Of a DNA stretch of 64,000 nt, positions 44,318 to 59,255 are shown piece by piece. This DNA comes from Jiangella asiatica (lineage in GTDB: Bacteria > Actinomycetota > Actinomycetes > Jiangellales > Jiangellaceae): contig NZ_SMKZ01000004.1 of the NCBI RefSeq assembly GCF_004349065.1, forward strand, positions 1 to 64,000, given 5' to 3'. The position numbers and the translations under genes were made by a program. The notes below the pieces were generated by a model, which made no database searches, was not told the origin of the DNA, and saw nothing but the letters and a program-made list of their open reading frames with translations. Within the stretch, counting starts at the first letter, position 1; each line of letters opens with the position of its first letter.

Positions 44318-46012
44318 TCACACCCGCGCGACGAAGATCCCCCACGTGAGGTGCCCGGCCAGGCCGCCGTCGACCCAGTGCCGCAGGCCGGCCTTCATCC
44401 GGGTCAGGTACTCGTCGCTGACCAGGCCCCGCAGGTCTGGCCCGCGCCGTTCGGTCTCTTCGAGGACCCGCCGGTAGTGCCGGGCCAGGTCGGGCGTGCG
44501 ATCGTGGAACTCCACGCTCGTCATGCCCAGCCGGTCCAGCTGGCTGGTGTAATACCGCGGCGAGGCCATGGACTCCAGGTGCAAGCGCCGCAGGATCGGG
44601 GCGAGCGCGTCGGGCGCGGCGTCGTCGGCACTCATCGGGTCGGTGAAGACGAGGACACCACCGGGCTTGAGCACGCGGCTGGCCTCGTCCAGGACCCGGG
44701 CCCGGTCGCCGCTGTGCAAGAACGCGTCCTGCGACCAGACCAGGCCGAACGAGCGGTCCTCGAACGGAAGGTCCTCGAACGATCCGTCGACGACGTCGAC
44801 GAGGTCGTCCAGGCCCTGCTGACGGTTCAACCGCCGGTTGCGCTGGTTCTCGATCTCGCTCAGGTTCAGGCACGTGACCCTGCAGCCGAACGTCCGGGCC
44901 AGGTACCGGGCGGCGCCTCCGAAACCGGCACCGACGTCCAGGACCCTGGTGCCGGGGCCGACATCGACCAGCTCGGCCATCGTCGAGACGGTCCGCCTAC
45001 TGGCCGTCGCGATGTCCTCGGCGGCGTCGTCATAGGTACCGACGTGTATGTCCTCGCCGCCCCAGATGGTGGCGTAGAAGTTGTCCGCGTCCGCGGAGTT
45101 GTAGTAGTCGCGGGCGGTGTGCACCGCCGACGAGTACATATCCGCCAATTCCTCGTCGGGTCGATAGTGCTTCTCGGCGACGTGGATGTAGAAGTCCGGC
45201 CGGTCGTCGGCGTAGGTCTGTTGGAAATCGCCGTAGGTGTCGACCTTCTGGAACCCGACCTCGCGCATCAACCGACGCACGTAGTCCTTTCGCAGCGGAA
45301 ACATGTTCAGGTGGTACTCCGAGCCGTCGGAGAAGCGGTACCGGAACCGCGCCAGCCCTTCGTCGACGTGCTCGGGTTCGGCCGAGACGTCCTCGCCGCA
45401 GTAGTAGAAGGTGTGCTTGCTGGCGAAGCCGTCGTCGAGGATGGCGTCGTAGTTGCGCTGGTCGAGGATCAGTACGCCGTCGTGCTTGAGCATGGCGTAG
45501 AACTCCGCGAGCGCCTTGCGCCGGTCACGCTCGGAGAACAGGTGTGTGAACGAGTTGCCCAGGCACACGATCGCGTCGTACTCGCCGTGGACGTCACGGT
45601 TCAGCCAGCGCCAGTCGGCGTGCACGACCCGCAGGATGTGGCCGCCGTGGGACAGCCCGTTCGCGAACGCCTTGGCCAGCATCTGTGGGCTGCCATCCGC
45701 GCTGACGGTCTCGAACCCCTCTTCCAGCAGCCGCACCGAGTGGAAGCCGGTACCGGTGGCCACGTCCAAAACCTTGCGCACTCCCCGTGATCGGAGCTGG
45801 TCGATGAAGAAGCTGCCCTCGCTCTCGTAGCGTCTCTTCCAGTCGATCAGCTCATCCCATTTCTCGACGAAGCTGGTGACGTATTCTGCGGTGTAATGGT
45901 CGGTGGCGCGGACCTCGAGTGGATCGTTGCCGAAGTCCTGGCCGGGAGAGCACTCCGTACTCGACAAGGTCGTGGTATTCCGTCGGTCGCCGATCTGGTC
46001 ACTTTCGGGCAT
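44318..46012 (-). CDS. Fused glycine/sarcosine and sarcosine/dimethylglycine N-methyltransferase (glycine betaine synthesis)
   Basis: A 564-residue protein with two SAM-methyltransferase domains. The first (~35-290) resembles glycine/sarcosine methyltransferase, with motif I KVLDVATGTGFHSVRLLEEGF and the LGNSFTHLF loop. The second (~310-564) resembles sarcosine/dimethylglycine methyltransferase, with motif I RVLDVGAGFGGAARYLA and the WSQDAFLHSGDR loop. Together they convert glycine to glycine betaine using three SAM. Such fusions are known from halophilic actinobacteria, where betaine is an osmoprotectant. It heads the metK-adenosine kinase-metH-ahcY-metF series. A ~220-nt leader separates promoter and ATG. 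Confidence 0.9.
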   Translation of the reverse strand: MPESDQIGDRRNTTTLSSTECSPGQDFGNDPLEVRATDHYTAEYVTSFVEKWDELIDWKRRYESEGSFFIDQLRSRGVRKVLDVATGTGFHSVRLLEEGFETVSADGSPQMLAKAFANGLSHGGHILRVVHADWRWLNRDVHGEYDAIVCLGNSFTHLFSERDRRKALAEFYAMLKHDGVLILDQRNYDAILDDGFASKHTFYYCGEDVSAEPEHVDEGLARFRYRFSDGSEYHLNMFPLRKDYVRRLMREVGFQKVDTYGDFQQTYADDRPDFYIHVAEKHYRPDEELADMYSSAVHTARDYYNSADADNFYATIWGGEDIHVGTYDDAAEDIATASRRTVSTMAELVDVGPGTRVLDVGAGFGGAARYLARTFGCRVTCLNLSEIENQRNRRLNRQQGLDDLVDVVDGSFEDLPFEDRSFGLVWSQDAFLHSGDRARVLDEASRVLKPGGVLVFTDPMSADDAAPDALAPILRRLHLESMASPRYYTSQLDRLGMTSVEFHDRTPDLARHYRRVLEETERRGPDLRGLVSDEYLTRMKAGLRHWVDGGLAGHLTWGIFVARV

Positions 46013-46236
46013 GCAAAACTCCCACCAGTTTCTTGAGCGGCAAGTTCTCGAGACATCACCAACGCGCCATTGCGCCGGTATCGGCCCGCCAACACGTCGG
46101 AAATCCGCAGATCAAGCGCACGGCGCCGCGGGCGCCTGACGCGCCACACATCGACCCGACAATCGTCGACGACTCACTGGGGCCCAGCATCGGCACGTGC
46201 CCCGCTATTACGCCGCGGGCCGCCGTGCCTGCATCC

Positions 46237-46265
46237 AAGCTAGGGGGTTTGAATCGATATGGCAA
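46237..46265 (-). promoter_or_regulatory. Promoter of the betaine/methionine-cycle operon
   Basis: On the minus strand TTGCCA (complement of 46260-46265), 17-bp spacer, TAGCTT (complement of 46237-46242) form a good housekeeping-type promoter. Transcription should start near 46229, giving a leader of about 217 nt with several short dyads, for example CTGGG-C-CCCAG. Near the ATG an AAACT/AGTTT pair brackets the ribosome-binding site. A perfect 12-bp palindrome CGCGAATTCGCG lies upstream at 46313-46324. Confidence 0.6.
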
Positions 46266-46568
46266 GATCTCGGCAATCTTCACCGCTGACCAGCGGATTC
46301 ATCGAGAGTTATCGCGAATTCGCGGACTATGATCACGCGAGCCACGGGGATGTGAAACCACCGTCCAGCCCATGCTGTATGGTTGGTTTGTTATCCAGGA
46401 TTCATCCGGTGCCATTCCACTGTCGTCGCGTACAGCGACCGGCCCGGCCACGAGAATGCCGGAACGCGTTGCGTGGGCCATCCGAGCGGAGTAAGAAGGC
46501 GATCGGGTGCTCATCGCGCCGCACGGGGCGGCCGAGACGGCCCACTGTCACGAGGGGAAGTGCCGAAC

Positions 46569-46775
46569 ATGGGCTTCGACGAGATCAAGAACAAGATCAC
46601 CGGCGCTGTGTCGGGCAACGCCGACAAGGTCGGCGACGGCGTCGACAAGGCGACCGACTTCATCGACGAGAAGACCGGCGGCAAGTACAGCGAGCACCTC
46701 GAGACCGCCGACGACAAGGCCCGCGACCTCCTGGAGGGCCTGGACGGCGACAAGGATCAGAACAACCCGGCCTGA
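46569..46775 (+). CDS. MT0933-type antitoxin family protein
   Basis: A 68-residue acidic protein (MGFDEIKNKITGAVSGNADK...) of the MT0933/Rv0909 antitoxin family, with repeated Asp/Lys-rich helices and resemblance to CsbD-like stress proteins. No partner toxin gene is adjacent on either side. In Streptomyces-type genomes a gene of this family lies in the same neighbourhood between miaB and miaA, so it is probably a vertical backbone gene and not part of a mobile toxin-antitoxin module. ATG chosen by the GAGGGGAAG upstream and by family length. Confidence 0.8.
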   Translation: MGFDEIKNKITGAVSGNADKVGDGVDKATDFIDEKTGGKYSEHLETADDKARDLLEGLDGDKDQNNPA

Positions 46776-46811
46776 CGCGCCGCCAGCACGACCGTGGGAG
46801 CGACGCGCGCC

Positions 46812-47525
46812 TCAGCCGTGCCGCTCCCACACCCCTACCACGTAGCCGACGCCGTAGGGCGCCTCGTCGTACAGGACGTCGGCGTCGAACAGCTCGTCCG
46901 CGGCCGCGCCGGCCAGCACGCGCAGCGGATTGACCCCGCTCGAACCGACCGCAGCACCCAGCTCGCTGTCCAGTGCGAGCAGCTGCTGCGGGTCGCCGTC
47001 CAGGACCGCCCTCGCGACCGCGGCGTCGAACCCGGCGGCCTTCTCGCGGACCTGCGGCGGTGAGGTGTCGGCCCGCAGGGCGGACCCGTCGGCCATGACC
47101 AGCAGCGCGACGCGGTCGGCTTGACCGGCCAACCGCTCCCCCAGCCCGACGCAGTCCGCCGCCGAGCCGTCCGCGGCCACCGTCGCCGCGACCACCGTGC
47201 CGTCCCAGCCGTCGCGCTCCAGCAGCCACGCGCCCACGCACAACGACAGCGGCAGTACAGCACCGTCCGCCGCGGGCGGGCCACCACCCGGCAGCGCGAC
47301 CTCGCGGTCGACGCCGTACGGCGCCAGGCTGCCGGCGCGCGGCGCGTCGCTCGTCGTCGTCGCACCGGTACCCACCACGACCAGCGTGTCCGGACTACCG
47401 GCGCGCAGCGCCTCGACCGCCGACCAGCAGGCCGAACGCAGCTGGTCGAGGCGGGCGTCGCGCGCGGGACCGAGGCCCGCCACCAGCAGCGGCGGATGGG
47501 GGCAGATGGCCGCGGAGATCAGCAC
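46812..47525 (-). CDS. Class III extradiol dioxygenase subunit B-like protein
   Basis: A 237-residue protein that begins with the family pattern ISAAICPHPPLLV and has the fold outline of LigB-type class III extradiol dioxygenases (LVVVGTGATT, LLVMADGSAL). Several metal-ligand His positions expected in true LigB enzymes are not evident, so catalysis on catechols is doubtful. In actinobacteria this gene regularly lies between miaB and miaA. GTG 47525 places the start directly before the conserved N-terminus; GTG 47552 would add nine residues. Confidence 0.78.
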   Translation of the reverse strand: MLISAAICPHPPLLVAGLGPARDARLDQLRSACWSAVEALRAGSPDTLVVVGTGATTTSDAPRAGSLAPYGVDREVALPGGGPPAADGAVLPLSLCVGAWLLERDGWDGTVVAATVAADGSAADCVGLGERLAGQADRVALLVMADGSALRADTSPPQVREKAAGFDAAVARAVLDGDPQQLLALDSELGAAVGSSGVNPLRVLAGAAADELFDADVLYDEAPYGVGYVVGVWERHG

Positions 47526-47580
47526 AGGGCTCAGACTACGCGCAGCTCCCACTCGTCATGGGCGGCGGAAACGTGGTCGA

Positions 47581-48078
47581 ATGACGCATATGTTCGACGC
47601 CGACCACAGCCTCCGCCTCGTCACGGCCGGGGTTGTCCTGCTGATCGGCATCGGCTGCTCGATCGCCTGGCTGCCCGCCACGCGACGCGACCCGGCAGGG
47701 CTGCCGTCGCGCGTGTTCGCCACCGTCGGCACGATCATGGCCATCGCCGACTGGGGTGGCGTCGGCAGCGTCCTGGGCATCTCACTGGCCGCGATGGGGG
47801 TGCTCGTCGGCTGGGAGGGCCAGCCGCCGCCGGAACTGCCCCGGCCACGCCGCGGCGGGCTGGTCACGGCCGCCGTCGTCGCCGGTGTCGCGACACTGGC
47901 GACCTTCGACGGGTGGGGCCCGCTCGAGCGGTTGCCGGAGGAGCTGCGCGCGGTGGCGACGCTCGTCGTCGCCGTCACCGGTGCGCTGGCCGCCCTGGCC
48001 ATCGCCGACCGCTCCCGCATAGGTCTGCGTGAGGCGATCCGGCGCCGGTTCACACCGCTCCCCAAGCCCACGCCCTGA
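47581..48078 (+). CDS. Small hydrophobic membrane protein, unknown function
   Basis: A 165-residue protein with about four hydrophobic segments (near residues 13-30, 42-68, 88-108 and 122-140) and a basic C-terminal tail. No domain recognised. An ATG three codons later (47590) is an alternative start; neither has a strong ribosome-binding site. Divergent from the extradiol-like gene with only 55 bp between them, and separated from the cupin operon by an independent promoter. Confidence 0.65.
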   Translation: MTHMFDADHSLRLVTAGVVLLIGIGCSIAWLPATRRDPAGLPSRVFATVGTIMAIADWGGVGSVLGISLAAMGVLVGWEGQPPPELPRPRRGGLVTAAVVAGVATLATFDGWGPLERLPEELRAVATLVVAVTGALAALAIADRSRIGLREAIRRRFTPLPKPTP

Positions 48079-48092
48079 TGCACACCGGACTC

Positions 48093-48148
48093 TTGACCGC
48101 CTCACCAACGTCCCGGTAACGTCGCCCAACACGAGGAAAGCGTTTTCC
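48093..48148 (+). promoter_or_regulatory. Cupin operon promoter with LacI-family operator
   Basis: TTGACC (48093-48098), 18 bp, TAACGT (48117-48122) form the promoter. GGAAAGCGTTTTCC (48135-48148) follows just after the predicted start point. The 14-mer has GGAAA/TTTCC arms and matches the general LacI/CcpA-type operator. Related sites precede the genes at 52633 and 53875. Confidence 0.68.
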
Positions 48149-48160
48149 ACTGGAGGCGCC

Positions 48161-48505
48161 ATGCCCGCTGCCCCTGCGACGGCCCGGCTCGACGCGATAG
48201 AGCCCCGAGCGTGCTCGTGCGGGTCCACCCGCCGGGCGTTCGTCGACGTCGAGCCCGGTACCGCGAGCGTCCACCTCCTGGACGTCGACGCCGCGGTCAC
48301 CCACTACCACCGCAAGGCCACGGAGATCTACGTCGTGCTCGAGGGCGAGGGGCGGGTGGAGCTCGACGGACGGTCCCACCTGGCCGGTCCGCTCAGCGCG
48401 TTCCTGATCCCGCCGGGTTGCCGGCACCGGGCCGTCGGCGAGCTGCGCGCACTCGTCATCGCCATCCCCGCCGCCGACGACACGGATGAGTACTTCGATG
48501 TCTGA
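48161..48505 (+). CDS. Cupin domain protein
   Basis: A 114-residue single cupin barrel. Motif 1 contains VTHYHRKATEIYVVLEGEGRVELDG (His-His-Glu metal ligands) and motif 2 contains FLIPPGCRHRAVG (His ligand), so metal binding is expected. ATG 48161 has TGGAGG 5-10 nt upstream. It is the first gene of an uptake operon, and its last codons overlap the permease start. It may be a small isomerase or a sensor/binding protein for the imported compound. Function not assigned. Confidence 0.85.
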   Translation: MPAAPATARLDAIEPRACSCGSTRRAFVDVEPGTASVHLLDVDAAVTHYHRKATEIYVVLEGEGRVELDGRSHLAGPLSAFLIPPGCRHRAVGELRALVIAIPAADDTDEYFDV

Positions 48506-49376
48506 TCTTGCTTCCCACCCCGGGACCACGACCGCCTCCCCCGACGGCGACCACGACGACGAGCGGCCGGACCGGCGCCGCGCGGCCGAGCGGGCCCGCC
48601 AGGTGCTCTCCGCCACCTGGCGCCCCGGCCTGATCCTGGTGCTCCTGTGGGTCGGCTGGTGGATCGTCACCGCCGCCGAGGTCTTCCCCGCCTACCTGGT
48701 GCCGACGCCCGGCGACGTCTGGGCGACGCTGATCGAGGACTGGGAGATGCTCGCCGAGCACACCTGGGTGACCACCTACGAGACGGTGGTCGGCTTCGTC
48801 CTTGCCGCCGTGATCGGGATGCTCGCGGCCGTGCTCATCGTGTACTCGCCGACGCTGGAGAAGGCGCTCTACCCGCTCATCCTGTTCGCCCAGGTCATTC
48901 CGAAGATCGCGATTGCGCCGATCCTCGTCGTCTGGTTCGGGTTCGGGCCCATGCCCAAGGTGATCCTCGCCGTCCTGATCGCGTTCTTCCCGGTCGTGGT
49001 GTCCGGGGTGGCCGGGCTGCGCTCCACCGACCCCGAGCTGCTGGACCTCTCCGCGACCATGGGGGCCAGCCGCTGGAAGACGTTCCGCAAGATCAGGTTC
49101 CCCGGTGCGTTGCCGCACCTGCTGTCCGGCCTCAAGGTCGCCGTCACGCTGGCCGTGGTCGGCGCCGTCGTCGGCGAGTTCGTCGGCGCCGACGAGGGAC
49201 TCGGCTACGTCTTACTGCTGGCCAGCGGCAACCTCAACTCCGCCCTGCTGTTCGCCGACCTGATCCTCATGTCCGCGCTCGGCGTGGTCCTCTTCATCCT
49301 CGTCGAGGCGGCCGAGGCGCTGCTCATCCCCTGGCACGCCAGCCGGCGCCAGGGCGTCCCACTGACCACCTCCTGA
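48498..49376 (+). CDS. ABC transporter permease, SsuC/TauC/ThiX type
   Basis: A 292-residue permease with an N-terminal polar extension (~45 residues) and about six membrane segments. The BPD_transp_1 cytoplasmic loop reads LDLSATMGASRWKTFRKIRFPGALPHL. This subgroup works with NMT1/THI5-like binding proteins to import sulfonates, riboflavin precursors, pyrimidines or thiamine precursors. ATG 48498 lies within the cupin stop region; an in-frame ATG at 48486 is also possible. Confidence 0.9.
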   Translation: MSDLASHPGTTTASPDGDHDDERPDRRRAAERARQVLSATWRPGLILVLLWVGWWIVTAAEVFPAYLVPTPGDVWATLIEDWEMLAEHTWVTTYETVVGFVLAAVIGMLAAVLIVYSPTLEKALYPLILFAQVIPKIAIAPILVVWFGFGPMPKVILAVLIAFFPVVVSGVAGLRSTDPELLDLSATMGASRWKTFRKIRFPGALPHLLSGLKVAVTLAVVGAVVGEFVGADEGLGYVLLLASGNLNSALLFADLILMSALGVVLFILVEAAEALLIPWHASRRQGVPLTTS

Positions 49377-49433
49377 CCGCGTCCGCCCCGTCTACATCCG
49401 CCCCGACACGTCCGCCATGAAAGGTGCCGCATC

Positions 49434-50438
49434 ATGCGACGCAGCTTGTTGACCACCTCGGCGGTGGCCCTTCTCGTCCTCACCGCCTGCGGCGACGACG
49501 ACCCGACCGCGTCCACCGGCGACGGTGAGATCACCGAGGTGACCCTGACCCTGAACTGGGTGCCCTACGGCGAGCACGCGCCGTTCTACTACGGCGTGGC
49601 CGAGGGCATCTACGAGGAGGAGGGCATCGACCTGGAGATCCGGCCGGGCAGCGGCTCGGGCACCACCGTGCAGCAGGTCGCCCAGTCACAGACCGACTTC
49701 GGCTGGGCCGACACGCCGCCGCTGCTCAACGGCATCACCGAGGGCATGCCGATCAAGAGCGTCGGCGTCTTCCTGCAGACCGGGCCGGCGTCGGTGGAGT
49801 TCTTCAGCGAGCAGGGCATCACCGAGCCGGCCGACCTCGTGGACAAGGTCGTCGCCGGCACCCCGGGCGACGCGATGTACGCGACGTTCCCCGCCTGGCT
49901 GGAGCTCAACGGCGTCAACCCCGAGGACGTCGAGGTGGTCAACGTCGACCCCGCAGGCAAGATCGCCGCGCTGGTCGAGGGCCGCGCCGACGCCATCATG
50001 GGCTTCTTCCACGACCAGGCGCCCACCATCGAGGACATCAGCGGCAAGCCCGTCGACGCCCTGCTCTACACCGACTGGGGCATGAACCTGCTGGGCACCG
50101 GCATCGTCGCGCACCAGAACACCATCGACGACGACCCCGAGCTGGTCGAGGCGTTCGTCCGGGCCACCGCGCGCTCGTGGGAGGCCGCCGCGGAGAACCC
50201 CGACGCCGCCGCGGCCGCCATGGAGGAAGGCGCCGACGAGACGCCGCCGGCGCAGGTGCTGCGCGCCCAGCTCGACGAGAGCATCGGGCTGCTCCGGCTG
50301 GACGAGGCCGGCGCGCCGGGCGTCAACAGCGAGGAACAGTGGCAGGAGACGATCGACCTGCTCTCCGAGCACGCCGAGCTCTCCGACCCGGGCGACCCGT
50401 CGACGTACTGGGACTCCTCGTTCAGCACGACGCAGTGA
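49434..50438 (+). CDS. NMT1/THI5-like ABC transporter substrate-binding lipoprotein
   Basis: A 334-residue lipoprotein with lipobox LVLTAC (Cys19). The mature part starts VTLTLNWVPYGEHAPFYYGVAEGIYEEEGIDLEI, the hallmark of NMT1/THI5-type periplasmic proteins that bind pyrimidines (such as the thiamine precursor HMP or its derivatives) and similar heterocycles. The TDFGWADTPPLL segment lines the binding cleft. Context with a nucleobase-permease-like protein supports a heterocyclic ligand. Confidence 0.88.
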   Translation: MRRSLLTTSAVALLVLTACGDDDPTASTGDGEITEVTLTLNWVPYGEHAPFYYGVAEGIYEEEGIDLEIRPGSGSGTTVQQVAQSQTDFGWADTPPLLNGITEGMPIKSVGVFLQTGPASVEFFSEQGITEPADLVDKVVAGTPGDAMYATFPAWLELNGVNPEDVEVVNVDPAGKIAALVEGRADAIMGFFHDQAPTIEDISGKPVDALLYTDWGMNLLGTGIVAHQNTIDDDPELVEAFVRATARSWEAAAENPDAAAAAMEEGADETPPAQVLRAQLDESIGLLRLDEAGAPGVNSEEQWQETIDLLSEHAELSDPGDPSTYWDSSFSTTQ

Positions 50439-50472
50439 CGACGGGGTTGAGGGCGACGTAGTGAGGGGAACG

Positions 50473-51297
50473 ATGTCGGACACCATGACGACGAGCGCAT
50501 CCGGGCAGCCCGCGGCGGCCGCCACCGAGACCACCATCGACATCCGCAACCTCAGCTGCACGTTCAGCTCGAAGCGGAAGCGGACGACGGCGCTGTCGGA
50601 CGTGTCGCTGCGGGTACGGGCCGGAGAGTTCGTGAGCATCGTCGGCCCGTCCGGGTGCGGCAAGTCGACCCTGCTCAAGATCGTCGCCGGGCTGATGCCG
50701 CCGAGCGACGGCGAGGTCCACCTGCTCGGCACGGCGGTCACCGAGCCGCAGCGCGAGATCGGCTTCGCCTTCCAGCGGGCCGCGCTGCTGGAGTGGCGCG
50801 GCGTGCGGGCCAACATCCTGCTCCAGGCCGAGATGCGCGGCATGGACAAGCGACGCGCCGCCGAGCGGGCCGACCACCTCATCGAGCTGACCGGCCTCAC
50901 CGGCTTCGAGACCGCGCTGCCCCACGAGCTCTCCGGCGGCATGCAGCAGCGGGTGGCGCTGTGCCGGGCGCTGCTGCACGAGCCGCCGGTGCTGCTCATG
51001 GACGAACCGTTCGGTGCCCTCGACGCGCTCACCCGCGAGCACATGAACGTCGAGATGCACCGCATCTGGCGCGAGACCGGCACCACCGTCGTCCTCGTCA
51101 CCCACTCCATCGCCGAGGCCGTCTACCTCGGCCAGCGAGTGGTCGTGATGACGCCGCGACCGGGCCGGATCGACCGGGTGTACGACGTCGACCTGCCGGC
51201 GCAGCGCGACTACGGCGCCACCATGTCCAGCCCGGCGTTCGAGACGCTGGCGCGGGAGATCCGGACACTGCTCGGGGCCAGCGGCCACCACGGATGA
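50473..51297 (+). CDS. ABC transporter ATP-binding protein, SsuB/TauB/ThiZ type
   Basis: A 274-residue ATPase with Walker A (GPSGCGKST), Q-loop (AFQRAALLEWRGV), signature LSGGMQQR, Walker B (VLLMDEPFGALD) and H-loop (VTHSIAEA). It powers the permease encoded two genes upstream. ATG 50473 follows GAGGGG; the stop overlaps the next gene start by 4 bp. Confidence 0.93.
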   Translation: MSDTMTTSASGQPAAAATETTIDIRNLSCTFSSKRKRTTALSDVSLRVRAGEFVSIVGPSGCGKSTLLKIVAGLMPPSDGEVHLLGTAVTEPQREIGFAFQRAALLEWRGVRANILLQAEMRGMDKRRAAERADHLIELTGLTGFETALPHELSGGMQQRVALCRALLHEPPVLLMDEPFGALDALTREHMNVEMHRIWRETGTTVVLVTHSIAEAVYLGQRVVVMTPRPGRIDRVYDVDLPAQRDYGATMSSPAFETLAREIRTLLGASGHHG

Positions 51298-52499
51298 CGG
51301 CGGGCGGGCCGGCGCCGGGACCGGCGGGGTCAGCGGCGGAACGGCGGTGGTGGAACACCGCCGGCGCGTGGCTGGCCATCGGCACGTCGCCGGCGGCGCT
51401 GGTGCTCGGCGCCGGCGTGGCCGACCGGCACGACGGGCCGATGCCGCTGGTGGCGCTGCTGGCCGGTGGCGTGGCGATGACGGTCCTGCTCATCCTGCAG
51501 GGCCGGTTCGGGCTGCGTCCGCCGCACGGCGACGGCTGGGCGCTGGCCGACGTCCTCGACGCCTACCTCCCGCGGAGCGGCCGCACCCTCGTCGCGCTCA
51601 TGATGGCACTGGCGATGGCCGGCTGGCTCGGGTTCAACGCGGGACTGGGCGGCGCCGCGCTGGCCTCCGTGGTGGGCACGCCGCGCTGGCTCGGCGTGGT
51701 GGTGCTCGGGCTGCCGCTGATGGCGCTCGCACTGGCCGGGCAGCACCGCTGGAACGCCCTGGCCATGGTGACGACGGCGGCCGCGCTGGCGCTCGTGGTC
51801 ATGATCGCCGCCCGCGGCTCACCGGGCGACCAGCCGCCGGTGACCGCCGAGCTGGGGCAGGCCGGGCCCCTCCTCGCCGACGTCGCGGTCTTCGTCGGCT
51901 ACGTGTCGGTGTTCGCTTTGCGCGCCCCGGACTTCACCGCCGGGCTGCGTGGCCGCTCCGACCTGTGGGCCTGCGCCGGCATCCTGGTGCTGCCGACGCT
52001 GGTCGCGGCCGCGGCCGGCACGACGATCGCCCTGCACAGCGGCTCGTCGGACCTCGTCGCCCACCTGCGGACCTCACAGGTCGGCACGGTGCTGGTGGTC
52101 GTGGCGGTGGTGGCGCCGTGCCTGACCGCGTTCCACTCCGGCGGTCTGGCGCTGCGTTCGGTCAGCGGGCTGTCCGGCCGGGCGGCGATGGTTCTGGTGG
52201 GTTCGGCGGGGCTGGTGCTCGCGGTCGGCGGGTTCGAGTCCGCGCTGCTCCCCTGGCTCACGGTCCTCGCCGCCGTGCTGCCGCCGCTGGTGGTGCCGCT
52301 GACCTGGGAGGCCTGGGCCCGACGGCGCCGGCATCGCGCACCGCGCCCCGTCATCTGGTCGATGTGGCTGCCCGCCGCCGGGCTCGGCATCGTCCTCACG
52401 GTCGCCGACGTACCCGGTGCACCGCTGGCCGGACTGGCGGCCGCCGCACTGTGCACCGGTGCGGCATACGCCCTGGCGACGCTCCGCGCCCGCGGGTGA
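51294..52499 (+). CDS. Cytosine/purine permease-like (NCS1-type) membrane protein
   Basis: A 401-residue membrane protein with about eleven hydrophobic segments. The arrangement and GFNAGLGG- and FVGYVSVFALRAPDFTAG-like segments resemble CodB/NCS1 nucleobase symporters, though similarity is moderate. Coupled to the ABC ATPase by an ATGA overlap. Having a secondary transporter and an ABC importer in one transcript suggests that the same heterocyclic compound is taken up by two routes, or that this protein exports a product. Confidence 0.7.
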   Translation: MTAGGPAPGPAGSAAERRWWNTAGAWLAIGTSPAALVLGAGVADRHDGPMPLVALLAGGVAMTVLLILQGRFGLRPPHGDGWALADVLDAYLPRSGRTLVALMMALAMAGWLGFNAGLGGAALASVVGTPRWLGVVVLGLPLMALALAGQHRWNALAMVTTAAALALVVMIAARGSPGDQPPVTAELGQAGPLLADVAVFVGYVSVFALRAPDFTAGLRGRSDLWACAGILVLPTLVAAAAGTTIALHSGSSDLVAHLRTSQVGTVLVVVAVVAPCLTAFHSGGLALRSVSGLSGRAAMVLVGSAGLVLAVGGFESALLPWLTVLAAVLPPLVVPLTWEAWARRRRHRAPRPVIWSMWLPAAGLGIVLTVADVPGAPLAGLAAAALCTGAAYALATLRARG

Positions 52500-52536
52500 T
52501 CGTCCCACGCAGCCGCTGTCGCCGGTGACCGAAACG

Positions 52537-52588
52537 TTGACTCCGAGCGGCGGCCACCGTTAGCTTGGCTGAGCGGAAAGCGCTTGCC
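52537..52588 (+). promoter_or_regulatory. Promoter and LacI-family operator of the TIM-barrel isomerase gene
   Basis: TTGACT (52537-52542), 18 bp, TAGCTT (52561-52566) is a clear promoter. GGAAAGCGCTTGCC (52575-52588) sits directly at the predicted start point. Its reverse complement is identical to the site at 53789-53802. Confidence 0.75.
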
Positions 52589-52632
52589 ACCGTCAGAAGT
52601 TCACCGTCGAACCCCGGAAGGTGGAACTCACG

Positions 52633-53499
52633 ATGCCCCGTCCCGTGCCCCTGAACCGCCGCACTTTCGTCCGCACCGCCCTCGCTTCGGCCGGCGCCGT
52701 CGCCCTCGGTCCGACCGTCGCCGCGGCCGCCTCGGAACCCACGCCAATGCGGATCATCCCCCGCCCGTCGATCGGGATGCACCTGTACACGATGCGCCGC
52801 TCCCTCGCCGTCGACTTCGCCGGCACGCTCCAGGCGCTCGCCGACATCGGCTACGCCACCGTCGGCGTCAGCGGACGGCACGGTCACAGCGCCGCGGCGA
52901 TCCGCTCGATGATCGACGACACCGGGATGAGGGCCGTCCTCGAACACGTCGGCTACGACCGCCTCACGAACAACCTGGAGGGGGCCTGCGAGGACGTCGT
53001 CACGCTGGGCGGCCACTGGGTGGTGACCTCCAGCCTGCCCGGGTCGCTGTACACCGCCGACGGAATCCGCCAGGCGGCCGCCGAGTTCAACCGGGCCGGG
53101 GCGATCGCCGCGACGTACGGACTGAAGGTGCTGCACCACAATCACGATGCGGAGTTCCGCACCGACGGCGGCCGGGTGCTCTACGACATCCTGGTCGAGG
53201 AGACCGACCCCTACTACGTCGGCTTCGAGCTCGACGTCTACTGGGCGGCGAAGGGCGGTCACGACGCCGCCGACTACTTCGTCCGCTACCCCGCCCGCTT
53301 CCCCGCGCTTCACGTCAAGGACATGGCACCCGACGGCGGGTTCGCGGACGTAGGCTCCGGCGTGCTCGACTTCGCTACGATGTTCCAGGATGCCCGCCGC
53401 GGCGGAGTCCGCCAGTTCCTCGTCGAGCACGACAACCCGCAGGACGAGCTCAGCACCGCCCGCAACAGCTTCCACGCCCTGCGAACGTTGCGTTTCTGA
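52633..53499 (+). CDS. Tat-exported sugar phosphate isomerase/epimerase (xylose isomerase-like TIM barrel)
   Basis: A 288-residue protein with a twin-arginine signal (NRRTFVRTALASAGAVALG, cleavage near AAAA) followed by an AP_endonuc_2/xylose-isomerase-like barrel. Probable metal ligands lie in KVLHHNHDAEF, ELDVYWAAKGG, ALHVKDM and FLVEHDNP. Exported members are linked to breakdown of modified sugars or sugar ketoacids. ATG 52633 has GGAAGGTGG upstream. A LacI-type operator at its promoter ties it to the neighbouring ThuA gene. Confidence 0.85.
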   Translation: MPRPVPLNRRTFVRTALASAGAVALGPTVAAAASEPTPMRIIPRPSIGMHLYTMRRSLAVDFAGTLQALADIGYATVGVSGRHGHSAAAIRSMIDDTGMRAVLEHVGYDRLTNNLEGACEDVVTLGGHWVVTSSLPGSLYTADGIRQAAAEFNRAGAIAATYGLKVLHHNHDAEFRTDGGRVLYDILVEETDPYYVGFELDVYWAAKGGHDAADYFVRYPARFPALHVKDMAPDGGFADVGSGVLDFATMFQDARRGGVRQFLVEHDNPQDELSTARNSFHALRTLRF

Positions 53500-53519
53500 C
53501 CTCGAACCACCCTTCTTGT

Positions 53520-53579
53520 GTTGATCAAGGCCCAGGGCGTGGGCACAGGCTCGCGTTTGCTGTGCCCTTGATCATCAAC
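53520..53579. repeat. 60-bp interrupted inverted repeat
   Basis: The right arm CTGTGCCCTTGATCA (53560-53574) is complementary to a left arm split by 10 nt: TGATCAAGG (53522-53530) plus GGGCACAG (53541-53548). Flanking GTTGA/TCAAC bases extend the symmetry. It stands 20 bp after the isomerase stop, so it may terminate that transcript, but its size and interruption look more like a mobile palindromic unit. Confidence 0.6.
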
Positions 53580-53587
53580 GATCCGCT

Positions 53588-53656
53588 ACATCACGAGGAT
53601 CGCGTGTGCTCCACCATGGTCGTAACCCTGGTGAGGCGCGAGAACTCCTGGTGATT
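53588..53656 (+). repeat. 69-bp hairpin-forming dispersed repeat, copy 2
   Basis: Aligns gap-free with the reverse complement of 26530-26598 at 52 of 69 positions. Outer arms ATCAC-G-AGGA and TCCT-G-GTGAT and inner arms CACC/GGTG are kept, while loop sequences differ. It follows the 53520-53579 palindrome after 8 bp. Confidence 0.72.
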
Positions 53657-53755
53657 TCGGGACGGCGCGTTCCCACACCGTCGCTTCACCAGCCACCAGC
53701 GAACCCGCGCGAGCGGCCGGTCACGGCCAATCCGTGACATATGTCGTAACTCCAC

Positions 53756-53824
53756 TTGATCCGCCCGTAACCCAGCCCTATGCTTCGCGGCAAGCGCTTT
53801 CCACCATTCCGGTAAGCGCTTGCA
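53756..53824 (+). promoter_or_regulatory. ThuA gene promoter with two LacI-family operators
   Basis: TTGATC (53756-53761), 17 bp, TATGCT (53779-53784) is the promoter. GGCAAGCGCTTTCC (53789-53802) covers the predicted start point and GGTAAGCGCTTGCA (53811-53824) lies 22 bp further, two helical turns away, allowing side-by-side binding. A 10-bp palindrome GACATATGTC lies upstream at 53736-53745. Confidence 0.75.
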
Positions 53825-53874
53825 CAGAACCACAGACCGAACGTCGCCGCCTGGCGCATCGGAGGTGCCGGTTC

Positions 53875-56800
53875 ATGTACCGTCCAGCCCTGGTCACCGC
53901 GGTCGCCGTCGCTCTCTCGGCCGTCGTCCTGCCTGCCGCGGCCCTGTCCGCCGTCGCCGCGACGGGCACGATGCAGGCTCAACAGGCCGAGAGCTTCGAC
54001 GCCCTGGTCTTCTCCAAGACCACGAACTTCTACCACGAGTCCATCCCGTACGGCGTCGCGGCCATCGAGGCTCTCGGCGAGGAGCACGGCTTCAACGTCG
54101 TGGTCTCCGACGACGCCGCCAACTTCACCGACGAGACGCTCGCCGAGTTCGAGGTGGTGATCTTCAACAACACCAACTCGACGCCGCAGGCGGGCAACCT
54201 GCTGAACGAGGAGCAGCGCGCGGCGTTCCAGCGCTACATCCAGGGTGGTGGCGGCTTCGTCGGCATCCACTCGGCGTCGGGCACCGAGCGGGACTGGGAG
54301 TGGTACGGCGAGCTGGTGGGCGCGTTCTTCCTGAGCCATCCGCCGATCCAGGAGGTGGAGGTCGAGGTCGACGACCCGGTGCACCCGTCGACGAGTCACC
54401 TGCCGCAGGAGTGGGTGCGCACCGAGGAACCGTACGACTTCGTCACCAACCCGCGCGGCGACGTGCACGTGCTGGCCAGCTTCGACTCGAAGTCCTACAC
54501 GGGGCACAGGATGGGTGCGGACCACCCGATCACGTGGTGTCAGAACTTCGACGGCGGCCGCTCCTGGTACACGGGCATGGGCCACAACCCGTCGGCGTTC
54601 ACCGACGAGCCGCTGTTCGTCCAGCACCTGCTGGGCGGCATCCAGTGGGCCGCGGGCGTCGTCGACGGCGACTGCGGCGCGACATCGAACCACAACTTCG
54701 AGAAGGTCCTGCTCGACGGCAACACCGACGACCCGCTGGCCATGGACATCGACGAGACCGGCCGGGTGTTCTACGTCCAGCGCGGCGGCGCGGTGAAGGT
54801 CTTCGACCCCACGACGGCGCAGACGGAGACGGTCGCGACCTTCGACGTCCTGGTGGAGCACACGCACGGGATGCATGGCATCGTGCTGGACCCGGACTTC
54901 GCCGAGAACCACTGGCTCTACCTCTACTACTCCCCCATCGACGACGAAGACACTGTCATCGCCCGCTTCACCTACGACGAGGCCACCGGGACCATCGACA
55001 TGGCTTCGCGGCAGGTGCTGTTCGAGCTGCCGTCGCAGCGGGAGGTCAACGCGCACGAGGGCGGCGGCATGGACTTCGACGCCCAGGGCAACCTCTACGT
55101 CGCGACCGGCGACAACTCCTCCCCCTGCTGCAGCGGCTACGGCGCGACCGACGAGCGGCCGGGCTTCGAGTACAACGACGCCCAACGGTCGTCGGCCAAC
55201 ACCAACGACCTGCGCGGCAAGATCCTTCGGGTGCACCCGGAGGACGACGGCACGTACACGATCCCCGCGGGAAACCTGTTCCCGCCCGGCACGGCGAACA
55301 CCCGGCCCGAGATCTACGTGATGGGCCTGCGCAACCCGTACCGCATCCACGTCGACGAGGAGACCGGCTGGCTGTACTGGGGCGACGTCGGCCCGGACGC
55401 CCGCGTCGACAGCGACACCCGGGGCAGCAAGGGCTTCGACGAGTGGAACCAGGCCCGGGCGGCGGGCAACTTCGGCTGGCCGCACTGCATCGGCGCCAAC
55501 CAGGCGTACAACGACTTCGACTACGCCACCAGCGAGTCCGGCCCGTTGTACGACTGCGCCGGCGGCCCGGTCAACGACTCGCCGAACAACACCGGGCTGA
55601 CGCAGCTGCCGCCGGCACAGCCGGCCTGGCTGCCCTACCCGTACGACGTGTCGCCGGAGTATCCGGAGCTCGGCAGCGGCGGCCGCCTGGCCATCGGCGG
55701 GCCGACCTACCACTTCGACCCCGACAACCCGTCGGAGGCGAAGTTCCCCGAGTACTACGACGACACCGTGCTCATCGCCGAGTGGACCCGCAACGCCATC
55801 TTCGAGGTGAAGCTCGACGAGGCCGGCCAGCCGGCGATCATCAACCCGTTCATGCCGGGTGTGGAGTTCCTGCGCCCGATCGACCTGCAGTTCGGCCCGG
55901 ACGGCTCGCTGTACGTCATCGAGTGGGGCACCAACTACGGCGGCTCCGGGCGCGGTGACCCCAACACCGACTCCGGCATCTACAAGATCAACTACGCTCG
56001 TCCCGGTGAGAGGTCGCCCGTCGCCCGCGCGACCGCAACGCCGACGTCCGGCCAGCCGCCGCTGACGGTCGAGTTCTCCAGCGAGGGCTCCGGCGACCCC
56101 GACGAGCACCCGATCGAGTACGCGTGGGACTTCGAGTCCGACGGCACGGTCGACTCCACCGAGGCGAACCCCACGCACACCTACACCGAGCGCGGCAACG
56201 TCACCGCCCGGCTCACCGTGACCGACCCGACCGGGCGCACCGGCATCGTCAACCTGCCGATCAGCGTGGGCAACACCGCGCCGGAGGTCGAGATGATCGA
56301 GCCGGTGGACGGGCAGTTCTTCGACTTCGGCGAGCCGGTCGGCTTCGAGGTCGAGGTCGCCGATGCCGAGGACGGCACCTCCGGCGACGGCATCGACTGC
56401 CAGCAGGTGATCACCCAGCCCTACCTCGGGCACGATCAGCACGGGCACCCGTTGGAGCAGTACCACGGCTGCACCGGCGAGATCCAGACCATCGTCGACG
56501 ACGGGCACGGCGAGCACGACAACATCTACTACATCGTCGACTCCACCTACACCGACCAAGGCGCCGACGGCGTCGAGCCGCTCACCGGCGGAGATTCCGC
56601 CATCCTGCAGCCGCGGCTCAAGCAGGCCGAGCACTGGACCAGCGCCAGCGACGTCGTCCTCTTCGACACCGAGGAGGGCACCGGCAACCGGATGGTCGGC
56701 CAGATCGGCCACGGTGACTACCTGTCGTTCGAACCGATCAACCTGCGCGGCGTCGACCAGGTCGACGTGCGGTACGCGTCGGCCGGCACGGGCGGCACGA

Positions 56801-58452
56801 TCGAGCTGCGGGTGGACGCCGTCGACGGACCGCTCGTCGGCAGTGGCCGGCTGGAGCCGACCGGCGACTCGTACGCCTTCGAGAACGTCACCATCCCGGT
56901 GGAGGACCCCGGCGGCAGCCACGAGCTGTTCCTGGTCTTCACGAACAACCCCGGCGACACCTACCTGTTCAACCTCGACTCGCTGCGCTTCGGGCACACC
57001 GTGCTCGACGGCGTCCGCGCGGCCCACGCGCAGGTGCGGGCGCTGCGCGCGGCCGTCGCCGAGCACGGTGCCGCGCTGACCGACGAGCAGTCGGCATACC
57101 TGAACAGCACCGCGGACCGAATGGACGTGGAACTGGCCGGCGCGCTGGAAACCGCCAGCGACGACCCGGGCTTCGACCGGCACCTGGACCGGGCGCTGAT
57201 GTTCGCCAACCAGGGCCGGCAATGGGTGCGCGGTCAGCAGCTCGACGGCGCGATGGCCGACGACGTCGCCGCCGGCCTGCTCGTCCCGCTCGACGCCGCC
57301 GCGACGGCGCTGCAGACGGCGCTGAGCCGGGCCGACGGGGTCAGCGCTGCGCTCGTGCCCGGCGACGGGGCGGTCACCGCGGGCGAGACGGTGCGCGTCG
57401 AGGCCAGTCTCACCAACGACGGCGACACTGAGCTGCGCGCGCCCGCGGTCGAGCTGACCGTGCCGGACGGCTGGCAGGCCGAGCCGGCGGGGCCGACGTC
57501 GGCCGCGTCGCTCGCGCCGGGCGCCACGCTGACCGGAGCGTGGGACGTGTCGGTGCCAGTCGGCGCCACGCTGGGCGAGGTGAGCCTGACCGGTGCGGCC
57601 GGCTACGCGCACATCGGTCGGGACCGCGTCGTCGTGTCGCTGTCGGCGCCGCTCACCGTCCGTCCGGCGGTGGAGGCGACGCAGGTCGCGGTCGCCGCGC
57701 CGGTGTTCAGCGGCCGGGAGACCACCGCGACGGTCACCGTCGCCAACCACCGCTCCGCCGCGGCGGCCGACGTGACGGCGACGGTGTCGGTGCCGGACGG
57801 CTGGACGGCTGGCAGCGCGACTGCGACGGTCGCGGCCGGTGAGACGGTGACGCTGGACGTGCCGGTGACCGCGCCCGCGGCCGGGCCGGCGGCCGGACAG
57901 CTGACCGAGGCGCAGCTCACGGCGACCGTGACCGCGCCGGGCGTCGTCGTCGGCGGCGCACCGGCCGCCGCGACGTACGCCGTCCCGCACGGCGACGACC
58001 TCGTGCTGGCGCTGGACGGTGGCTCGCCTACCAGCCCGGTACTGGAGTCGTACGCCCCGTTGTCACCGGACCACGCCTGGGACGAGGCCCGCGGCTACGG
58101 CTGGGTCACCGGCGCGCCGCTACAGCGCGACCGCGGCCATCCCGATGCCCTGCGCCGGGACTTCGTGCTGGACAACCGGGGCCCGGGCGTGCTGCGGCTG
58201 ACCCTGCCGCCGGGCCAGCACGCGGTGTCGCTGCTGACCGGGGACCCGAACTTCTCCACCTCCGGGTTCGTCGTGGAAGCAGACGGCCAGGTGGTCGTCC
58301 CGGCTAGAGCCACGCTGCCGACCGGCACCTACGCGTGGGAGCAGTTCACCCTGGACGGCGGCACGGAGGGCCGCACCGTGGACCTGCGGCTGTCCAGCCC
58401 GACCGGCAACTACTGGCGCATCCTCGCCCTGCTGGTGGACGACACGGCGTAG
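53875..58452 (+). CDS. Secreted multidomain ThuA / glucose-sorbosone dehydrogenase / PKD / CBM6 protein
   Basis: A 1525-residue exported protein. A signal peptide (~1-30) is followed by a ThuA glutamine-amidotransferase-like domain (~41-259, with GGGFVGIHSASG), a PQQ-type glucose/sorbosone dehydrogenase six-bladed propeller (~272-707; HGMHGIVLDPDF, GLRNPYRIHVDEETG), a PKD domain (~712-799), a linker, a CBM6-like carbohydrate-binding domain (~905-1042), a helical segment (~1043-1157), two NEW3-like beta-sandwiches (~1158-1358) and a C-terminal carbohydrate-binding-like domain (~1369-1525). It probably binds and oxidises a polysaccharide or glycoside outside the cell. ATG chosen by GGAGGTG upstream. 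Confidence 0.88.
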   Translation: MYRPALVTAVAVALSAVVLPAAALSAVAATGTMQAQQAESFDALVFSKTTNFYHESIPYGVAAIEALGEEHGFNVVVSDDAANFTDETLAEFEVVIFNNTNSTPQAGNLLNEEQRAAFQRYIQGGGGFVGIHSASGTERDWEWYGELVGAFFLSHPPIQEVEVEVDDPVHPSTSHLPQEWVRTEEPYDFVTNPRGDVHVLASFDSKSYTGHRMGADHPITWCQNFDGGRSWYTGMGHNPSAFTDEPLFVQHLLGGIQWAAGVVDGDCGATSNHNFEKVLLDGNTDDPLAMDIDETGRVFYVQRGGAVKVFDPTTAQTETVATFDVLVEHTHGMHGIVLDPDFAENHWLYLYYSPIDDEDTVIARFTYDEATGTIDMASRQVLFELPSQREVNAHEGGGMDFDAQGNLYVATGDNSSPCCSGYGATDERPGFEYNDAQRSSANTNDLRGKILRVHPEDDGTYTIPAGNLFPPGTANTRPEIYVMGLRNPYRIHVDEETGWLYWGDVGPDARVDSDTRGSKGFDEWNQARAAGNFGWPHCIGANQAYNDFDYATSESGPLYDCAGGPVNDSPNNTGLTQLPPAQPAWLPYPYDVSPEYPELGSGGRLAIGGPTYHFDPDNPSEAKFPEYYDDTVLIAEWTRNAIFEVKLDEAGQPAIINPFMPGVEFLRPIDLQFGPDGSLYVIEWGTNYGGSGRGDPNTDSGIYKINYARPGERSPVARATATPTSGQPPLTVEFSSEGSGDPDEHPIEYAWDFESDGTVDSTEANPTHTYTERGNVTARLTVTDPTGRTGIVNLPISVGNTAPEVEMIEPVDGQFFDFGEPVGFEVEVADAEDGTSGDGIDCQQVITQPYLGHDQHGHPLEQYHGCTGEIQTIVDDGHGEHDNIYYIVDSTYTDQGADGVEPLTGGDSAILQPRLKQAEHWTSASDVVLFDTEEGTGNRMVGQIGHGDYLSFEPINLRGVDQVDVRYASAGTGGTIELRVDAVDGPLVGSGRLEPTGDSYAFENVTIPVEDPGGSHELFLVFTNNPGDTYLFNLDSLRFGHTVLDGVRAAHAQVRALRAAVAEHGAALTDEQSAYLNSTADRMDVELAGALETASDDPGFDRHLDRALMFANQGRQWVRGQQLDGAMADDVAAGLLVPLDAAATALQTALSRADGVSAALVPGDGAVTAGETVRVEASLTNDGDTELRAPAVELTVPDGWQAEPAGPTSAASLAPGATLTGAWDVSVPVGATLGEVSLTGAAGYAHIGRDRVVVSLSAPLTVRPAVEATQVAVAAPVFSGRETTATVTVANHRSAAAADVTATVSVPDGWTAGSATATVAAGETVTLDVPVTAPAAGPAAGQLTEAQLTATVTAPGVVVGGAPAAATYAVPHGDDLVLALDGGSPTSPVLESYAPLSPDHAWDEARGYGWVTGAPLQRDRGHPDALRRDFVLDNRGPGVLRLTLPPGQHAVSLLTGDPNFSTSGFVVEADGQVVVPARATLPTGTYAWEQFTLDGGTEGRTVDLRLSSPTGNYWRILALLVDDTA

Positions 58453-58473
58453 CGATCAGAACTCGGCCGGCGG

Positions 58474-58495
58474 CGGGACGATCCGCAGCGTCCCG
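58474..58495 (+). terminator. Candidate terminator after the ThuA gene
   Basis: Perfect 7-bp arms CGGGACG (58474-58480) and CGTCCCG (58489-58495) with an 8-nt loop, 22 bp beyond the stop codon. No U-tract. Confidence 0.45.
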
Positions 58496-58541
58496 TCGCT
58501 GGCCTGCTTCACCACCACGATGGCGCCGACTATGGCAAGAC

Positions 58542-58559
58542 GATGGTAGTCTGATGGTA
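58542..58559 (+). promoter_or_regulatory. vapBC leaderless promoter with direct repeats
   Basis: GATGGTA occurs at 58542-58548 and 58553-58559, 11 bp apart, and a TAGTCT -10 box (58547-58552) lies six bases before the vapB ATG. This is the spacing of leaderless actinobacterial transcripts. The repeats overlap the -10, as expected for autorepression by VapB. Confidence 0.55.
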
Positions 58560-58792
58560 TGCGAACGACCATCGACAAGGCGGGCCGCCTGGTCCTTCCC
58601 AAGCAGCTGCGCGAACGCGTCGGCATGAGCGCTGGAGAGGTGGACGTTACGGTCGACGGAGCCGGGCTGCGTATCGAGCCCCTCGCCGGCGACGACCTCG
58701 ACGAGCGGGGTGACCGACTGGTCGTGCCGCCGTCAGGCGTTGTGATCGACGACGAGCTCGTCCGGGCCCTGCGCGATGCCGACCAACGCTGA
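58559..58792 (+). CDS. vapB: AbrB/VapB-type antitoxin
   Basis: A 77-residue antitoxin. An N-terminal SpoVT/AbrB swapped-hairpin DNA-binding domain (MRTTIDKAGRLVLPKQLRER, residues 1-45) is followed by an acidic C-terminal toxin-binding segment. No ribosome-binding site precedes the ATG, fitting a leaderless mRNA. Its end overlaps the vapC start by 17 bp. It should neutralise VapC and repress its own promoter. Confidence 0.9.
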   Translation: MRTTIDKAGRLVLPKQLRERVGMSAGEVDVTVDGAGLRIEPLAGDDLDERGDRLVVPPSGVVIDDELVRALRDADQR

Positions 58793-59201
58793 GCCCGACT
58801 TCCTCGTCGACACCAGCGTCGCCGTTCCCCTCGTCGTCGCGGATCATGAGCACCACGAGACCGTGACCGGGGCGCTGCGCGGCGCTCGCCTCGGGTTGTC
58901 CGGGCATGCCGCGTTCGAGGCCTTCTCGGTCCTGACCCGCCTCCCGCCGCCGGCGCGGCGCACCGCGCGCGCCGCGACCCAGCTGATCACCGTGAACTTC
59001 CCGCTCAGTCGCCACCTGAGCCCATCGGTCGCCGCCGAGCTCATCGATCGGCTCGCCGCAGCCGGCATCTCGGGCGGTGCCGTGTACGACGCCCTCGTGG
59101 GAGCCACGGCCCGGGAGCACCGAGTCGTCCTGTGCACCCGCGACCGCCGCGCCCTGGAGACGTACCGGGCACTCGACGTCGAGGTGAAGCTGATCGACTA
59201 G
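58776..59201 (+). CDS. vapC: VapC-type PIN-domain ribonuclease toxin
   Basis: A 141-residue PIN-domain endoribonuclease. All expected acidic residues are present: Asp12 in DFLVDTSVAV, Glu in HAAFEAFSVL (about 49), Asp in GAVYDALVGA (about 108) and Asp in CTRDRRAL (about 126). They bind Mg2+/Mn2+ for cleavage of tRNA or rRNA. The complete motif set suggests an active toxin. Encoded with vapB just downstream of the ThuA gene and convergent with miaB, at the edge of the non-backbone block. Confidence 0.9.
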   Translation: MPTNAEPDFLVDTSVAVPLVVADHEHHETVTGALRGARLGLSGHAAFEAFSVLTRLPPPARRTARAATQLITVNFPLSRHLSPSVAAELIDRLAAAGISGGAVYDALVGATAREHRVVLCTRDRRALETYRALDVEVKLID

Positions 59202-59222
59202 TTTCCGTTGCCATGCAGGGCT

Positions 59223-59246
59223 CGCCCGCCTGAAACCTCGCGGGCG
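59223..59246. terminator. Terminator between vapC and miaB
   Basis: Perfect 7-bp arms CGCCCGC (59223-59229) and GCGGGCG (59240-59246) with a 10-nt loop, between two convergent stop codons 54 bp apart. Confidence 0.55.
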
Positions 59247-59255
59247 GCGCGGGGC

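Follow-up and report, generated by a model that had tools for sequence, protein, structure and literature searches.

A predicted LacI-family regulon of Jiangella asiatica with a likely role in oxidative glycoside breakdown

The levoglucosan route combines a LacI protein and an ATP-binding cassette (ABC) importer with enzymes of oxidation, elimination, hydration and reduction (excerpts of PMC7676230 and PMC10066097), and its cluster in Bacillus smithii holds genes for LacI, a sugar ABC importer, LgdA, LgdB1, LgdB2 and LgdC (excerpt of PMC7676230). Here we analyzed 64,000 nucleotides of Jiangella asiatica DNA (the window; contig NZ_SMKZ01000004.1, denoted C79 below, in a genome of 7.03 Mb and 134 contigs), where four short palindromes lie at three promoters, those of an importer operon, of an exported TIM-barrel protein called isomerase and of a secreted ThuA-domain protein. 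We propose that a single LacI-family repressor uses these sites as its operators and would control at least five units at three genome places and the oxidative, 3-keto-type breakdown of glycosides; the most likely candidate is the product of the LacI gene at C30:90231-91238. We hold this reading to be probable. Comparison of sequences establishes that the sites exist and are conserved, that they co-occur and co-localise with LacI proteins of the C30 type, and that other actinobacteria have the genes in one continuous cluster. What was an orphan set of sites would become a defined regulon with a named candidate regulator and a testable pathway, and the NMT1/THI5-type importers and the DUF993 family would be linked to sugar catabolism.

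Operators at three promoters of the window

The control regions contain the following elements, the operators having been located by pattern search and the sigma-70-like promoters assigned by eye.

48093-48122, plus strand: promoter of the importer operon, TTGACC-18-TAACGT (-35 and -10 align in 12 relatives)
48135-48148, plus strand: operator 1, GGAAAGCGTTTTCC
52537-52565, plus strand: promoter of the isomerase gene, TTGACT-17-TTAGCT (relatives aligned)
52575-52588, plus strand: operator 2, GGAAAGCGCTTGCC
53521-53579, plus strand: terminator-like hairpin in the gap between the isomerase and ThuA genes (fold of 53500-53600, z -2.63)
53756-53784, plus strand: promoter of the ThuA gene, TTGATC-17-TATGCT
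53789-53802, plus strand: operator 3, GGCAAGCGCTTTCC
53811-53824, plus strand: operator 4, GGTAAGCGCTTGCA, starting 22 bp after the start of operator 3

Each operator lies, by eye, at or just after the start point of its promoter, and the isomerase-ThuA gap holds the hairpin, a promoter and two operators. The four 14-mers listed in the first-pass annotation of this DNA were all recovered by pattern search, as were the exact reverse complementarity of two of them (operators 2 and 3, 52575-52588 and 53789-53802) and the 22 bp, start to start, between the two ThuA sites. According to section 9 of PMC4052901, LacI sites are as a general rule even palindromes with a central CG, and 22 bp is a reported peak in the spacing of paired LacI-family sites. 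The window sites are indeed even palindromes with a central CG.

The exact motif GGNAAGCGNTTNCC gave five strand-wise matches at three places of the window against 0.01 expected, and none of 100 shuffles reached five; the place at 53811 (operator 4) differs from it by one mismatch. When two mismatches were allowed, 16 matches were found against 15.02 expected, which is chance level, and therefore only near-exact sites are informative. A motif as frequent as in shuffles is what one would expect from chance palindromes or sites of a global regulator. This explanation is nevertheless extremely improbable, since exact sites are far above chance and exact GGNAAGCGCTTNCC sites number 3-6 per genome in the genus, conserved at orthologous promoters. 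A chance origin was thus rejected, being contradicted by both the exact counts and the conservation. We predict that the four window sites are, very probably, genuine LacI-type operators.

The importer cluster was sought in 40 genomes and found in 10 of 11 congeners (not in G005) and in two genomes of a second genus. Operator 1 is letter-identical in all 12 related clusters, and upstream of it CTTGACC and a -10 region of the GGTAACGTC type can be aligned, with GGTAGCGTC in one relative. Operator 2 is also present in 12 of 12, as GGAAAGCGCTTACC in ten, GGAAAGCGCTTGCC in one and GGAAAACGCTTACC in one; in G016, one of the ten, it precedes ThuA because the isomerase is missing there. ThuA directly follows the isomerase, with no site between, in nine of the 12 clusters. 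The differing ones are G018, with a site between the two genes, G003, with no ThuA there, and G016, with no isomerase. Altogether, the comparisons of sites and relatives support the earlier proposal that LacI-type operators mark the start of three transcription units under one shared repressor.

Members of the regulon and their candidate regulator

Exact GGNAAGCGCTTNCC occurs at four places in the genome: two in the window, C30:91502 and C37:411435. On C30 the order is LacI gene, operator, Gfo/Idh gene (11 bp after the operator), DUF993 and TIM barrel. On C37 the same operator precedes a second protein with ThuA, glucose/sorbosone dehydrogenase (GSDH), CBM6 and PKD domains (ThuA2), which enters a 3-keto-disaccharide hydrolase domain at the end of the fetched piece (PF06439 positions 1-75 of 187, 5.2e-12). 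The sites are not random genome-wide, as all four places precede related genes. They had been described as a local regulon without its regulator. Neither attribute was supported, as the regulon reaches contigs C30 and C37 and has a candidate regulator in the LacI gene at C30:90231-91238. The genome scan suggested at that stage returned further members of the regulon and a linked LacI gene, but not the anticipated site before that LacI gene itself. The absence of a LacI gene from the window is borne out: the genome has at least 55 LacI helix-turn-helix (HTH) matches (150 of 171 candidates scored), and none of the 55 reported lies on C79.

The looser GGNAAGCGNTTNCC has eight exact places in the genome, three of which, with an AAGCGG core (C31, C32, C53), show no visible link to regulon genes. 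From the looser genome site list 18 regions were fetched and read, and two are members (C30, C37). Other listed sites fall within reading frames (L040 and L044, for example) or adjoin a different LacI gene (L048) and were not counted, nor was C109:22541 (L039), which has no convincing target downstream. A second, different LacI-type operator pair was seen on C51, where a minus-strand gene, probably for a sugar-binding lipoprotein, has two GGCAATCGATTGCC copies 18 bp apart at its start (C51:58295-58326; L051 4496-4527).

The C30 LacI contains a LacI HTH domain (PF00356, 1.2e-15) and a periplasmic-binding-protein-like domain (PF13377, 2.6e-31). It finds a match at E<=1e-60 in 22 of the 40 genomes (own included), and exact GGNAAGCGCTTNCC is present in all 22 of these versus two of the 18 others. 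In the 20 genomes whose LacI is at least 63% identical (own included), an operator lies 11-31 bp before the Gfo/Idh gene without exception, and in G023 it occupies the intergenic region of LacI and Gfo/Idh, which diverge from each other. Divergent from the C30 LacI is an inositol-type set (a Cgl0159-like aldolase, a sugar kinase and a Gfo/Idh protein; L037 63-3034, minus strand), with no operator between the two in the own genome; such a set is divergent from LacI also in the ten genus loci with Gfo/Idh that were read.

Over the 12 genus genomes (own included), GGNAAGCGCTTNCC was counted 52 times versus 6 for the reversed control (forward-strand sum). Forty exact-site regions of relatives were assigned by reading to Gfo/Idh (12), ThuA2 (10), a polysaccharide-lyase-8-like gene (7), ThuA3-isomerase (3), a TIM barrel (1) and a DUF1080-like gene (1), six having no recognisable target; two further regions are Gfo/Idh (L292) and ThuA (L293). 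The genus sites G010:6050127, G011:C43 and G011:C66 are left out of this set, and the lyase label comes from Pfam searches of just two of these genes, that of L121 and the own one in L054. The lyase-like gene carries GGCAAGCGCTTGCC in L121, L126, L137, L147, L150 and L156 and GGCAAGCGCTTACC in L142. Its likely own counterpart (L054 at 4445) has GGAAAGCCCTTGCC upstream, with the central CG lost, suggesting a possible escape from the regulon. In L134, L140 and L149, a third ThuA-GSDH gene is followed by an isomerase 38-39% identical to that of the window, under the same operator.

When named genomes were searched with an alignment of the binding protein, 77 loci were obtained, 70 of them outside the family. 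At 21 of the 29 Micromonospora loci, a single cluster comprises LacI, operator GGAAAGCGTTTGCC, permease, binding protein, ATPase, Gfo/Idh, DUF993 and TIM barrel; the second permease, TM5, is found in 19 of these 21 and a cupin match in 13. All six Actinophytocola loci hold LacI, operator, importer and Gfo/Idh-DUF993-TIM, five of them with ThuA behind an operator. The operator would hold together a regulon that Jiangella and its near relatives have in separate pieces and whose counterpart in Micromonospora and Actinophytocola is one uninterrupted cluster. The best match of the Micromonospora LacI is the C30 LacI, with 254 bits versus 184 for the next. Outside the family, all 30 loci whose LacI match reaches at least 218 bits (rounded identity 40-44%) have the motif, and none of the 17 with a match of at most 122 bits (29-35% identity) does. 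These classes were cut at rounded 40% identity, L243 and L251 being just below 40 unrounded, and are cleanly separated by bits (>=218 versus <=122). As the loci are related, the Fisher value of 3.6e-13 for motif versus LacI class overstates independence. Where the flank holds no LacI, the motif was found in 17 of 24 loci, one of which (L198) is Jiangella.

One would also wonder whether the operators belong to another of the at least 55 LacI proteins, the C30 LacI simply neighbouring one site. This is unlikely in view of the co-occurrence of LacI and site (22/22 versus 2/18 genomes), the constant operator at Gfo/Idh (20/20), the division of the motif by LacI class in other taxa (30/30 versus 0/17) and the best match of the Micromonospora LacI. 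Several observations nonetheless weigh against our assignment. No operator lies before the C30 LacI gene itself; autoregulation is frequent, not obligatory, in LacI-family regulators. G012 has like sites beside other LacI genes, 31-33% identical (L276, L279, L280). AAGCGCTT is a generic core: in Rhizobiales and Rhodobacterales, AglR has the motif nnntcAAAGCGCTTTgannn (PMC4052901, in part). In G019, G020 and G039, the GGNAAGCGCTTNCC sites that were counted do not belong to Gfo/Idh: G019 and G020 have GGTAAGCGTTTTCC at Gfo/Idh, so that their counted sites are other places, and two of the three G039 sites, when read, adjoin neither LacI nor Gfo/Idh. Motif and LacI are both missing from seven of the 24 loci without LacI in the flank, the six relative regions without recognisable target (L124, L133, L136, L143, L153, L157) include two sites inside a gene, and relatives are not independent samples. 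The assignment of the operators to the C30 LacI is sequence-based, and both its binding and its regulation are predicted.

Enzymes, importer and their proposed substrate

The units of the window encode the following proteins.

48161-48505, plus strand: cupin-domain protein (PF07883, 5.7e-10)
48486-49376, plus strand: ABC permease (PF00528, 1.6e-32)
49434-50438, plus strand: ABC substrate-binding protein, NMT1/THI5 family (PF09084, 7.5e-45), predicted fold nearest ThiY 3ix1
50461-51297, plus strand: ABC ATPase (PF00005, 2.9e-32)
51294-52499, plus strand: permease TM5, 12 hydrophobic segments, CodB/NCS1-like predicted fold, no Pfam match
52621-53499, plus strand: exported TIM-barrel protein ("isomerase"; PF01261, 8.5e-13), candidate 3-keto-glycoside beta-eliminase
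53875-58452, plus strand: secreted ThuA - glucose/sorbosone dehydrogenase - PKD - CBM6 - NEW3 protein (ThuA1; Pfam domains, hydrophobic start)

The first-pass annotation had named a ThuA gene and a secreted sugar dehydrogenase; both domains are present, but in one fusion protein of 1,525 residues instead of two proteins. A PIN-domain protein gene (58776-59201; PF01850, 7.1e-14) follows ThuA, as also seen in G008.

The window isomerase, which by eye has a twin-arginine-like start, has as its nearest solved chain 8BVK (6.5e-23), the O-glycoside beta-eliminase AtOGE (PMC10628242, in part). The AtOGE metal ligands H132, D163, H189 and E233 correspond to identical residues H173, D205, H231 and E269, the catalytic H134 to H175, and E161 and H66 to E203 and H109. 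We consider the window isomerase a candidate beta-eliminase acting on 3-keto-glycosides. A point on the opposite side is that Glu39, alone among the eight named residues, is replaced (Gly82); according to the available part of PMC10628242, one subunit has a displaced metal site, and only there do E39, H66 and E161 join H132 in binding the metal.

The C30 Gfo/Idh (PF22725, 1.3e-25; PF02894, 2.1e-18) is under the same operator. For the second TIM barrel, on C30, which would take the hydratase slot, the nearest solved entries do not bear the name of a 2-hydroxy-3-keto-glucal hydratase, and the solved proteins that Gfo/Idh, DUF993 and this barrel resemble have loosely worded function names or none. 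No mention of DUF993 was found in the literature searched. The parts of the literature consulted give no function for S. meliloti SMc04132-SMc04134 and, on 2-hydroxy-3-keto-glucal import and on ThuA/LacI in Micromonospora or Jiangella, contain nothing describing this regulon.

The regulon likely functions in oxidative, 3-keto-type breakdown of glycosides. The C30 LacI would act as a repressor, because the sites lie at or just after the start points, and would be released by a sugar-type effector. Its units would be the importer operon, the exported isomerase and ThuA1 in the window, Gfo/Idh-DUF993-TIM on C30 and ThuA2 on C37. Oxidation and cleavage of the sugar would take place outside the cell, by the ThuA-dehydrogenase proteins and the exported TIM-barrel eliminase. 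A product could then enter through the ABC importer and the CodB-like permease, and Gfo/Idh, the second TIM barrel and DUF993 would finish the conversion.

The importer had been called pyrimidine-like, and its link to sugar oxidation unexplained. The likeness exists in sequence and fold, and nothing beyond likeness supports a pyrimidine. Among solved proteins the binding protein is nearest to ThiY 3ix1 (1.3e-20; Z 32.3, 296 residues, root mean square deviation 3.4, 24% identity), and the TM5 model, of moderate confidence (mean pLDDT 68.8), aligns with the cytosine permease CodB 7qoa (Z 34.9, 368 residues, root mean square deviation 3.7); no Pfam family, NCS1 included, matched TM5 at E<=1. Both folds would suit an importer of a thiamin-type pyrimidine or nucleobase that shares the regulon with the sugar enzymes only incidentally. 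We find this doubtful, as identity to ThiY is just 24% and a LacI-type operator precedes the importer in all 13 clusters of the family seen. Positions 46000-60000 gave no Rfam match at gathering score and hence no thiamin pyrophosphate (TPP) riboswitch, the usual control of thiamin-type genes. Moreover, of the 70 loci outside the family, 30 combine the importer with Gfo/Idh-DUF993-TIM, and 47 combine it with at least one of Gfo/Idh-DUF993-TIM, ThuA and isomerase in the fetched piece. The link to sugar oxidation is thus partly explained by gene context.

Another hypothesis is that the importer takes up pyrroloquinoline quinone (PQQ) for the GSDH domains of the regulon. GSDH-family domains are present in both ThuA proteins, PqqE was above the curated cut-off in none of the 31 genomes searched (own included), and the PQQ-binding PqqT shares the binding-protein fold. 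We judge it very unlikely, however: PqqT is farther than ThiY (Z 24.7 versus 32.3; 14% identity), the importer lies beside Gfo/Idh-DUF993-TIM in Micromonospora, and the dehydrogenases have signal-like hydrophobic starts, so that PQQ would be needed outside the cell. The own genome encodes GSDH-type (PQQ family) domains despite having no PqqE above the cut-off.

A reserve about the proposed sugar pathway is that, to our knowledge, this importer type is not known for sugars. ThiY-like and CodB-like folds are known for flat heterocycles, and a flat-ring substrate, such as the keto-glucal made by AtOGE, would reconcile both. We tentatively suggest that the ThiY-like importer and the CodB-like permease may take up a flat, unsaturated pyranone, either 2-hydroxy-3-keto-glucal or a similar oxidised sugar, released by the secreted enzymes, glycosides being cleaved extracellularly by oxidation and elimination, under one LacI repressor and with the cluster split in this family.

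Comparison with described systems

ThiY-type pyrimidine importers share family and fold with the window binding protein; the Jiangella importer differs by its LacI-type operator, its sugar-enzyme neighbours and the lack of a TPP riboswitch at 46000-60000. The trehalose and alpha-glucoside regulons of ThuR and AglR also involve LacI-family regulators and sugar use, AglR with the same AAAGCGCTTT core. As described in the available part of PMC4052901, ThuR and AglR act locally in Rhizobiales and relatives, each on its own gene and a single divergent operon, and the outer bases differ.

A closer parallel can be drawn with the AtOGE operon of Agrobacterium tumefaciens, which has a Gfo oxidoreductase and two TIM-type "sugar phosphate isomerases", and whose eliminase has its metal ligands and catalytic His kept in the window isomerase (PMC10628242, in part). 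ThuA-GSDH, DUF993 and an NMT1 importer are not named for that operon in the same excerpt. The window isomerase has 51 residues before the aligned barrel and the AtOGE chain 10, which fits export in Jiangella.

The B. smithii levoglucosan cluster, as far as given in the excerpt of PMC7676230, likewise joins a LacI gene to an ABC importer, oxidoreductases and enzymes of elimination and hydration. By comparison, the Jiangella system has an NMT1/THI5-type importer together with a CodB-like permease, contains DUF993 and secreted ThuA-dehydrogenase proteins in addition, has an exported protein as its candidate eliminase and is distributed over three genome places.

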